Origin: Candidatus Spechtbacteria bacterium RIFCSPHIGHO2_02_FULL_43_15b
GTDB lineage: Bacteria > Patescibacteriota > Minisyncoccia > Spechtbacterales > HO2-43-30
Direction: 5' to 3'
Assembly (NCBI GenBank): GCA_001819985.1
Contig: MHOE01000003.1
Location: 233-40,129 of the forward strand
Length of the DNA: 39,897 nucleotides
The notes below the pieces were generated by a model. The model was not told the DNA's origin. It worked only from the letters and a program-made list of their open reading frames with translations, and did not search any database. Below are positions 3,068 to 37,515 of the stretch, one piece after another (position 1 is the first letter of the stretch; every line of letters begins with the position of its first letter). The translations under genes and the position numbers were made by a program.

Positions 3068-3086
3068 ACCGAGGTCAGACCCCGGT
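3068..3086. repeat. GGGGTCAGACCCC-family palindromic element (intergenic, degenerate)
   Basis: ACCGAGGTCAGACCCCGGT, near-perfect palindrome with the same core as other copies in the window. Confidence 0.65.
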
Positions 3087-3241: not shown

Positions 3242-3799
3242 ATGGGTTTGAAATGGATTGTAATTATCGCTTGGATCGTAGTTTCTATATTTGGGTTTTA
3301 CTTGCTGTATCAAAAAGCTGATTTCGAAACAAAAGAAGAAAAAGTTATTTTTGAAAGCCCCTTGCGGGTCAGATATCCAGAATTAAATTTCGAAGAGAAA
3401 AATGACGGTGATTTTGTTGATTTGCGGAGATTGAAAAAGGAAGCGGTATCAAGCCCGGTAGTATTCGCAAGCGCGATAGATGAGTCAAAACCTTTATATC
3501 TCATCGTGAAAAAGGTGAATGGAGATTTTGGCGGTTTAGGTCGCAGTACTTCTATAGGACAAATAAACCTTGTTTACATTGGATATTCGCGGTTGGATTA
3601 TGGTGTTTTAGTTTCCTACATCGAAACTCACAATCCTCCGACAGAAGATTACCGTTGGCAAGTGGGTTCCGTAAACACAAGTGGCGCGACATGGATTTTT
3701 GATCCTAACGCAACCGAAAATATTGTCGCCCTTATTATTGTAGGCATTCTTTGGTGTGCTGTCGGCAGTATTATATTGTTTGCGATATATAACAAATAG
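3242..3799 (+). CDS. hypothetical membrane protein (N- and C-terminal TM segments)
   Basis: 185-aa ORF; hydrophobic WIVIIAWIVVSIFGFYLLY-like N-terminus and IVALIIVGILWCAVGSIILFAIY C-terminus; GGGAGG upstream. Confidence 0.75.
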   Translation: MGLKWIVIIAWIVVSIFGFYLLYQKADFETKEEKVIFESPLRVRYPELNFEEKNDGDFVDLRRLKKEAVSSPVVFASAIDESKPLYLIVKKVNGDFGGLGRSTSIGQINLVYIGYSRLDYGVLVSYIETHNPPTEDYRWQVGSVNTSGATWIFDPNATENIVALIIVGILWCAVGSIILFAIYNK

Positions 3800-6632: not shown

Positions 6633-6745
6633 GAATTGCAAAACGGGGTCAGACCCCTGTGGTATTATTCTTTTCGAGTGAATATTTTTTTTAAGAGACA
6701 CATTTTTTAGAAGATGTTTTGGCGTCTGACCCAGTTTTGTAATTC
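6633..6745. repeat. REPIN/MITE-like inverted pair of GGGGTCAGAC repeats
   Basis: GAATTGCAAAACGGGGTCAGAC (6633-6654) and the reverse complement of GAATTACAAAACTGGGTCAGAC (6724-6745): 20/22 identity, ~70-bp AT-rich centre. Confidence 0.75.
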
Positions 6746-35387: not shown

Positions 35388-36308
35388 ATGAAAGGCAAAC
35401 CGGAAAAAGTTTTTGTAATTCTCTTAAACTGGAACAATTGGCACGAAACCCGGGAGTGTTTGGCGTCTCTTGAGAAAGCAGATTATCCAACTTTTGAAGT
35501 GATTATCGTGGATAACGGGTCAAACCAAAAAGATGTAGCGGAAATCAAAAATTTTAGTAATAATGTTTCAGGTTTTATACTTCATATCTTGTGGAATAGT
35601 AATAATCTTGGCTTTGCCGGAGGTAATAATGTGGGCATAAGATATGCCCTTGAGCGCGGCGCGGATTATGTTTTTCTTCTGAACAATGATGCGATTGTTG
35701 CGCCTGACTCTTTGACTAAACTGGTCAAAGCTGGGGAAAGCGACAAAATCCTTGGAATTCTAGGATCAAGAGTTTATAAGTACGGGACAGATGAAGTCGT
35801 GTTTGATGGCGGGAAGGTAAATAATCTAATGACAAAGGCCTATCATCAGCCAAAACTAACGGGGTCTGACCCCGTTAGTTTTGGGGTGCAGTATGTAACC
35901 GGTGCCGCTTTTTTAATAAAACGCGAAGCGATCGAAAAGATCGGTCTCATGCGTGAAGAGTACTTTCTTTATTATGAAGATGTTGATTGGTGCGTGCGGG
36001 CAAGAAACGCGGGGTTTAAGTGTGTGGTTGTTCCGGAAAGCAAAGTATGGCACAAGGTCTCCGCGACAAACAAGGAGGGTTCTCCTTCGTATATTTATTA
36101 CCATACTAGAAACAGCTTAATACTCGCCAAATTCAACGGCAATATTTGTCAAAAAGTATGCGCGTATTTACTCGCTATCTGGATTTTAGAAAAGCAAGTT
36201 CTGAAATTTTTTTTAGTCCCTTCCCGTCGCAAGTGGTCTAGGGCTATGACAAGGGGGGTATTGGATTTTCTAAAATGCAAATACGGGCAATACGAAAACC
36301 CGGCTTAA
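35388..36308 (+). CDS. GT2-family glycosyltransferase
   Basis: VILLNWNNWHETRECLASLEKADYPTFEVIIVDNGSN, NNLGFAGGNNVGIRYAL, FLLNNDAIV, YVTGAAFLIKREAIEKIGLMREEYFLYYEDVDWCVRARNAGF. Confidence 0.92.
   Translation: MKGKPEKVFVILLNWNNWHETRECLASLEKADYPTFEVIIVDNGSNQKDVAEIKNFSNNVSGFILHILWNSNNLGFAGGNNVGIRYALERGADYVFLLNNDAIVAPDSLTKLVKAGESDKILGILGSRVYKYGTDEVVFDGGKVNNLMTKAYHQPKLTGSDPVSFGVQYVTGAAFLIKREAIEKIGLMREEYFLYYEDVDWCVRARNAGFKCVVVPESKVWHKVSATNKEGSPSYIYYHTRNSLILAKFNGNICQKVCAYLLAIWILEKQVLKFFLVPSRRKWSRAMTRGVLDFLKCKYGQYENPA
35852..35882. repeat. 31-bp perfect palindrome, GGGGTCTGACCCC family, inside the GT2 gene
   Basis: AAAACTAACGGGGTC-T-GACCCCGTTAGTTTT: 15-bp perfect arms, in frame, encodes KLTGSDPVSF. 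Confidence 0.95.
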
Positions 36309-36321
36309 AACCCTTAATCAT

Positions 36322-37515
36322 ATGCGCATCGCCATCGACTGTCATAATCTTGAAGGAAACCGCACCGGCGTTGGCCGATATCTTTGGAATGTATTGCGCG
36401 AATGGTACAAACTAACGGGGTCAGACCCCGTTAGTTTGGAGTTGTTTCTTTATTTCAAAAACGAAATCCCAAAGGATTTGGACGCAATGGATCGGCCTTA
36501 TATGGAAAGACGGGAATCCCACATAAGAGTTTTGGATGCGGGGAGCAACGCTGTTTACAAGCACTTGCGCCTTCCCTTGGCGGTTTTTAGGGATAAGGCG
36601 GATGTTCTCTTTTGTCCGGATTATGTTCTCCCGATACTCAAATTCAAGAAATGCAAAACCGCGGTAACTATCCACGATATTATTTACGAAGCGCGGCCGG
36701 CTGAATATTCCTGGCCGTCCTTTGCCGACAAAATTTTGCTTAAATGGGCATCAAAGCGGTCCGCTAAAAAAGCAGATGTGATATTTTGCCCTTCAAATTT
36801 TACAAAAAGTGAAATTGAGAAATACTACAAAATAAATTCGAAAAAAATTACAGTAACACGCCTTGCGCCGGATCCGATTTTCAGAAAGCCGGATTTTTCA
36901 AAGATTAGAGAGATCGGATATGCGGAAAAATGGAGCGGCATAAAGAAGAAATACCGGATTGGCGATAATTTTGTATTTTTTGTGGGTTCAATATTTAATC
37001 GCAGATTTTTGCCAAAAACAGTCGATGCCTTTAAGGAATTCGCGCGCGAACGCGATGATTTTCAGTTTTTGATAATAGGAAAAAATCACTCCAGTCCATA
37101 TCAAGATATCGGCGCTGTTATAAAAAATACGAATTCAGAAATGGGTCGGGAGGCGGTAGTATGGCATGAATTTATTCGGAATGACGATGACCTTGTTTTT
37201 CTTTACAACAAAGCCCTGGCGACTGTTTGGGTTTCAAGCTATGAAGGTTTCGGTTTGCCGATTCTTGAAAGTATGGCGTGCGGAACGCCCGTGATTACAT
37301 CGAGGGGCAGTTCACTCGAGGAAGTTGGCGGAGATTCAGCTATTTACATAAAAGACCCGGGAAATATCAGAGAAATCTCAATGGCACTTTCAAAATTATC
37401 CAACGACAACAATTATCGTTTGGATTTATCGAGAAAATGCCTCGAATACACAAGAAAATTTTCATGGCAAAATACAGCAATGGCAACTCTGGACTGTTTG
37501 CTTAGATTGAAATAA
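36322..37515 (+). CDS. GT4-family glycosyltransferase
   Basis: GNRTGVGRYLWNVLREW, TVHD-like AVTIHDIIYE, FVGSIFNRRFLPKTVDAFKEF, SSYEGFGLPILESMACGTPVITSRGSSLEEVGGDSAIY. Confidence 0.93.
   Translation: MRIAIDCHNLEGNRTGVGRYLWNVLREWYKLTGSDPVSLELFLYFKNEIPKDLDAMDRPYMERRESHIRVLDAGSNAVYKHLRLPLAVFRDKADVLFCPDYVLPILKFKKCKTAVTIHDIIYEARPAEYSWPSFADKILLKWASKRSAKKADVIFCPSNFTKSEIEKYYKINSKKITVTRLAPDPIFRKPDFSKIREIGYAEKWSGIKKKYRIGDNFVFFVGSIFNRRFLPKTVDAFKEFARERDDFQFLIIGKNHSSPYQDIGAVIKNTNSEMGREAVVWHEFIRNDDDLVFLYNKALATVWVSSYEGFGLPILESMACGTPVITSRGSSLEEVGGDSAIYIKDPGNIREISMALSKLSNDNNYRLDLSRKCLEYTRKFSWQNTAMATLDCLLRLK
36408..36438. repeat. 31-bp perfect palindrome, GGGGTCAGACCCC family, inside the GT4 gene
   Basis: CAAACTAACGGGGTC-A-GACCCCGTTAGTTTG: 15-bp perfect arms, in frame, encodes YKLTGSDPVSL. 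Confidence 0.95.

Follow-up and report, generated by a model that had tools for sequence, protein, structure and literature searches.

In-frame REP-like palindromes in unrelated genes of a Patescibacteria family and their probable link to RAYT transposases

How two neighbouring genes of different protein families can come to carry the same short palindrome, each gene reading through it to give the same peptide, is the question raised by a stretch of 39,897 nucleotides (the window) from Candidatus Spechtbacteria bacterium RIFCSPHIGHO2_02_FULL_43_15b. The palindromes are probably copies of a short non-autonomous REP-like element of Patescibacteria that is mobilised in trans by a HUH tyrosine transposase of the RAYT/TnpA-REP kind, a reading to which we assign a probability of about 0.78. 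In what follows G000 is the genome of the window, G001 and G002 are the other two genomes (sister genera) of its family, and G156 is a class-level relative. The features of the window are listed here.

35388..36308, + strand: GT2 glycosyltransferase gene, 306 aa; KLTGSDPVS is residues 156-164, in a loop
35850..35884, no strand: perfect palindrome CCAAAACTAACGGGGTCTGACCCCGTTAGTTTTGG, arms 17 bp, centre T, in frame within the GT2 gene
36322..37515, + strand: GT4 glycosyltransferase gene, 397 aa; KLTGSDPVS is residues 30-38, in a loop
36408..36438, no strand: perfect palindrome CAAACTAACGGGGTCAGACCCCGTTAGTTTG, arms 15 bp, centre A, in frame within the GT4 gene
6642..6660, no strand: decayed intergenic copy, core GGGGTCAGACCCC intact and most of the arms gone, 146 bp to either adjacent ORF
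3068..3086, no strand: decayed copy ACCGAGGTCAGACCCCGGT, not within any listed ORF

Both palindromes are present and perfect, in agreement with the preliminary description, which had given each as 31 bp with 15-bp arms; that figure holds for the GT4 copy, but the arms of the GT2 copy are slightly longer. The 19-mer AACGGGGTCWGACCCCGTT has four matches in the window at no more than 3 mismatches, against 0.02 expected. The host genes belong to unrelated families, as had been stated, with Pfam assigning the first to PF00535 and the second to PF00534/PF13439. AlphaFold2 models also uphold the placement of both peptides in loops: residues 156-164 of GT2 are predicted to be coil with strands at 151-153 and 165-167 on either side (block pLDDT 68), and residues 30-38 of GT4 the end of helix 17-32 and the coil preceding strand 40-45 (block pLDDT 66), each peptide being a low-confidence coil adjoining well-predicted core elements. 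It is likewise true that the two copies share a frame and a peptide, but this provides no independent evidence. The remaining two frames of the element carry TAA/TAG, which by symmetry applies to both strands, and the common reading frame is forced because those frames hold stops; the shared frame as a sign of in-frame targeting was dropped on the same ground.

The genome-wide search proposed as a check was run on the 34 contigs (939 kb) of G000. The core GGGGTCWGACCCC occurs exactly at 12 sites (reversed control, 0), a 27-mer matches 13 sites at no more than 3 mismatches, 7 of them exactly, and the family reaches about 17 related copies once degenerate ones are added. The exact 27-mer had no match in the collected genome contigs, and viral contigs, scanned likewise, gave neither a match nor a phage carrier. 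Seven copies are genic, a count that rests on ORFs rather than annotation: the two in the window and the following.

L067: copy in an MBL-fold (metallo-beta-lactamase-fold) protein gene, in frame
L069: copy in the SecA gene, in frame
L072: copy in a dTDP-sugar-isomerase-like gene, in frame
L070:2457-3648 (G000:C25): two copies of the window's type in another GT4-like gene, in frame, one with a masked stretch of 12 N after it

All seven are in the GSDP phase, a phase imposed by the stops, and translate as (K/R)L(T/P/S)GS(D/N)P. The non-genic copies lie between ORFs or within short doubtful ORFs, those that are intergenic being 15-180 bp away from gene ends.

The distribution of the core is narrow. 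It is present in 14 of the 286 genomes of the class that were searched, and more than 2 copies are found solely in the family's three genomes, with counts of 12, 7 and 3 as compared with 1-2 in each of the 11 others. The two sister genera (7 and 3 exact matches) have the same core with other arms, and the arms are genus-specific, being AAACTAAC in G000, CAATCGGGC in G002 and ATTATTGC in G156. At least 7 in-gene palindromes occur in G002, with in-frame copies in genes for ComF, GalU, a GT2, two GT4 and an MBL-fold protein (the last at the same site as in G000), and 6 of 7 in-gene copies there are in the GSDP phase, though another frame is always open. A second subfamily, with ATGTGC arms, is dispersed at 8 places in G000 and 6 in G002 and is in frame in several genes, including that for UvrB in G002; its peptides differ (GGSTPH, RGWTPH). 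As a separate observation, an ATP-grasp gene of G000 (G000:C30:11101-11154; L223, about 1501-1560) contains two adjacent in-frame palindromes of the ATGTGC type, adding about CAGSNPAHMNVRGWTPHI.

That insertion, and not shared ancestry of the genes, accounts for the palindromes had been argued from the two glycosyltransferases alone, and is now supported by the spread of copies across unrelated genes and intergenic DNA and by the homologues of SecA, most of which lack the peptide. At its palindrome the G000 SecA has 11 residues (33 nt) that are missing from 19 of 28 homologues and likewise from PDB SecA structures, and when UvrB of G002 is aligned with PDB UvrB, a gap of 8 residues falls at its second-subfamily palindrome. 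Alignment to homologues had been suggested for the two glycosyltransferases, and there a clean 30-bp insertion is not supported, the net gain over the closest homologues being about 1 residue in GT2 and about 5 in GT4; in these two genes and in the MBL-fold gene the gain is less than the element length. Because the nearest homologues are just this much shorter, the GT2 and GT4 elements appear, from the alignments, to occupy loops of naturally variable length. Conservation of the peptide in orthologues, which had been named as evidence against insertion, was not seen, the peptide being absent in SecA, GT2 and GT4 homologues. No DNA-level empty site, which would define insertion boundaries and any target duplication, was found among the relatives compared.

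What occupies these sites differs between genera. G000 and G002 both have a palindrome at the MBL site, each with arms of its own. For GT2 and GT4, descent of the occupied site from a common ancestor was considered and rejected, as relatives hold other content there. In the sister genera the GT2 loop holds unrelated short repeats, GCAACATGCAACATGCAATATGCA in G001 (L191) and GAATTAGGAATCATGAATCATGA in G002 (L190), and the loop therefore accepts several kinds of repeat. At the loop of SecA where G000 has its palindrome, G001 (L122) has a different GC-rich, repeat-like insert, CCCTCCTTACGAAGGAGGGGGTAGGGGAGGTCAGACCCCCTCC.

The evidence for a mobilising enzyme comes mainly from relatives, in which a class 2 Y1 HUH transposase (HUH, Y---NP) is present; the window's own genome has an N-terminal fossil only. 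The RAYTs of relatives score above the PF01797 cut-off, with the HxH and Y---NP columns conserved. From named genomes, mostly Patescibacteria, 43 RAYT loci were taken, of which 38, nearly all from Patescibacteria, were usable, and palindromes whose arms measure 10 bp or more were sought inside the gene or no more than 110 bp from it. Such palindromes were found downstream at 25 loci, upstream at 16 and inside the gene at 18, compared with 7 of 294 control windows, and at several loci one palindrome recurs at all three positions. The internal palindromes are open in frame, mostly 20-35 residues ahead of the HUH motif, with a few immediately behind it. The Y1 transposase gene of G156 has a palindrome with the GGGGTCNGACCCC core upstream, downstream and, in frame, inside, and in the wider class most palindromes at RAYTs lack the GGGG core. 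The first Y1_Tnp loci of relatives lacked a GGGGTC palindrome, which spoke against a RAYT link, but the test for any palindrome at the 38 loci reversed this. At the loci L089, L083 and L085, the flanking palindromes of one RAYT have a common inner part and differing yet complementary outer arms. The apex GTC-N-GAC is frequent among RAYT palindromes despite differing arms, other apices being AACWGTT and ATCSGAT; the type of apex possibly marks the RAYT subtype.

With regard to the window's own family, a Pfam Y1_Tnp search gave no RAYT in G000-G002, and no intact RAYT is present in the three genomes as assembled (82-100% complete by estimate, in many contigs whose gaps could hide one). A profile made from an alignment of Patescibacteria RAYTs did retrieve, on contig C24 of G000, a truncated N-terminal fragment (E 1.6e-7).

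G000:C24, about 3290-3600 (L211:1451-1752): RAYT fossil, encoding MPSIRIKPATGESIYNIHNRGNEKHDIF...FLRYKFAGE

The fossil is bracketed by the palindromes TCCTATGTGCGGGGTCTAACCCCGCACATAGGA and CAATGTGCGGGGTTGAACCCCCGCACATTG, both with a GGGGTY..RACCCC core, and ends at the internal palindrome, directly ahead of an ORF that starts like uppP (named by eye). If the internal and downstream palindromes had recombined, the catalytic part would have been lost and just such a fossil left. Its arms are ATGTGC and those of the window copies AAACTAAC, the common part being the GGGGTY..RACCCC core alone; among dispersed copies, then, the ATGTGC subfamily matches the palindromes of this local transposase, and the window's subfamily matches by core only. 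The REP-like character first proposed for the window palindromes thus gains from the palindromes that flank RAYT transposases in relatives and from the fossil that persists in G000.

Under the REP-like reading, the apex of the element hairpin is GTC-N-GAC, the RAYT would act on this hairpin in single-stranded form, and copies may land anywhere. Those in genes would survive only where the frame stays open, which for the window's subfamily leaves one possible frame, and where they fall in a permissive surface loop, which would gain about ten residues with the protein left intact. With the RAYT since decayed in G000, the family may no longer move in this lineage. Several of the results weigh against this reading: no intact RAYT in the three genomes, fossil arms unlike those of the window copies, no GT[AG]G foot, no DNA-level empty site, a net gain below the element length in GT2, GT4 and MBL, and, in the wider class, RAYT palindromes that mostly lack the GGGG core.

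The symmetry of the copies has to be set beside this account. When right flanks were shuffled among copies relative to left flanks, complementarity beyond the family sequence was found to exceed chance in G000 (sum 31 vs 11.0 on shuffling, P 0.0005) and in G002 (sum 19 vs 4.8, P 0.007). The arms of the ComF copy reach 24 bp, and variants in one arm are compensated by complementary changes in the other (CTACC/GGTAG, CTATC/GATAG). The flank complementarity suggests either perfecting by template switching after landing or landing in small hairpins (hairpin targeting). Template switching has been proposed for the palindromes in coding genes of nematomorph mitochondria (PMC6649704), and it could be taken further, with template switching at hairpins during replication (quasi-palindrome correction) making the palindromes and keeping them perfect, arms and flanks being rewritten in place and a transposase rarely or never needed. 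The flank complementarity, the compensated variants, the different-armed palindromes at the MBL site and the small net length change in GT2, GT4 and MBL would all fit such a process, yet alone it cannot place the same 27-bp sequence at seven loci that are unlinked, and the RAYT association and fossil indicate a mobile source; we consider this explanation distinctly improbable. A combination of the two is somewhat easier to accept, although still unlikely: RAYT palindromes would seed permissive loops, and fold-back template switching would then rewrite the palindromes where they stand, such that arms and flanks stay complementary and sequences diverge by genus.

Selection offers two further explanations, on the DNA or on the peptide. 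Perfect symmetry and the position of intergenic copies near gene ends are what might be expected of functional sites (for protein binding, as terminators or as mRNA hairpins) that are merely tolerated in genes, but a core largely confined to a single family of organisms, arms that differ by genus, the lack of a common gene context and the many copies within unrelated coding regions make this very unlikely. It is harder still to credit that GSDP is a functional peptide motif under selection with the DNA palindrome as a by-product. The phase bias in G002, where another frame is open, is in its favour, but homologues of SecA, GT2 and GT4 do without the peptide, identical DNA is also intergenic, and the second subfamily encodes other peptides.

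The REP-like element thus preferred is of a known kind, and in-frame REPs, Rickettsia palindromic elements (RPEs) and REPs inside RAYT genes have already been published. In REPtrons (REP + RAYT/TnpA-REP), subclass 2.4 of Quentin et al. 2018 includes palindromes in frame inside the TnpA-REP gene, and double-foot symmetric palindromes exist (PMC6006769). The present system is like REPtrons in its HUH Y1 transposase with the Y---NP signature, its cognate flanking palindromes, its in-gene palindromes and its dispersed copies. It is unlike them in that the elements lack the GT[AG]G foot and have near-perfect symmetry with a 1-base apex, that most internal copies are N-terminal to HUH and not between HUH and Y, that copy number is low, and that the window's genome is without an intact RAYT. 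No common GT[AG]G tetranucleotide was found 5' of the stem, the outer flanks varying from copy to copy. Intragenic GTAG/CGTC REPs are found in frame in unrelated ORFs, including those for UvrA/UvrB, and two species have one at roughly the same position in RecB (PMC3733652). The tag of those elements, GTAG or CGTC, is unpaired, and over half of the intragenic ones are dimers or grouped (PMC3733652), whereas the present ones are symmetric, mostly single and found in Patescibacteria. The traits of CGTC REPs and of RPE-4 and RPE-6 (an unpaired CGTC end tag and a loop of 4-5 bases) are absent from these fully symmetric elements.

A resemblance to RPEs (Ogata 2000, 2002), put forward in the preliminary description, stands as to the way of working, as both are mobile palindromes in frame in many unrelated genes of small genomes with a recurrent peptide, but membership does not: RPEs are about 150 bp according to a review (PMC10969869), and the elements described here are set apart by length (25-49 bp) and host, belonging to another phylum, and by their link to RAYTs. 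The nematomorph mitochondrial palindromes, too, are perfect inverted repeats in coding genes with arms kept identical, but they reach 284 bp, and their description does not present them as one sequence family with dispersed copies (PMC6649704). What distinguishes the present elements from the published ones is the strict symmetry without the GT[AG]G foot and the complementarity that extends into copy-specific flanks. A limited literature search, which is no proof of novelty, retrieved nothing relevant on such elements in Patescibacteria, Parcubacteria or CPR.

Collectively, these observations extend in-frame REP-like insertion to the reduced genomes of Patescibacteria and to core genes such as secA and uvrB, and tie it to RAYTs by way of the copies that flank the transposase genes, lie inside them or accompany the fossil. 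Peptides that recur among the predicted proteins of these genomes, KLTGSDPVS for one, call for caution, being derived from the element and not domains. The set of orthologous sites could allow the insertion, rewriting and loss of coding palindromes to be tracked and, if seeding and rewriting were true, loops of core proteins would be replaced repeatedly, one repeat family after another, as the GT2 site of G000, G001 and G002 may illustrate.
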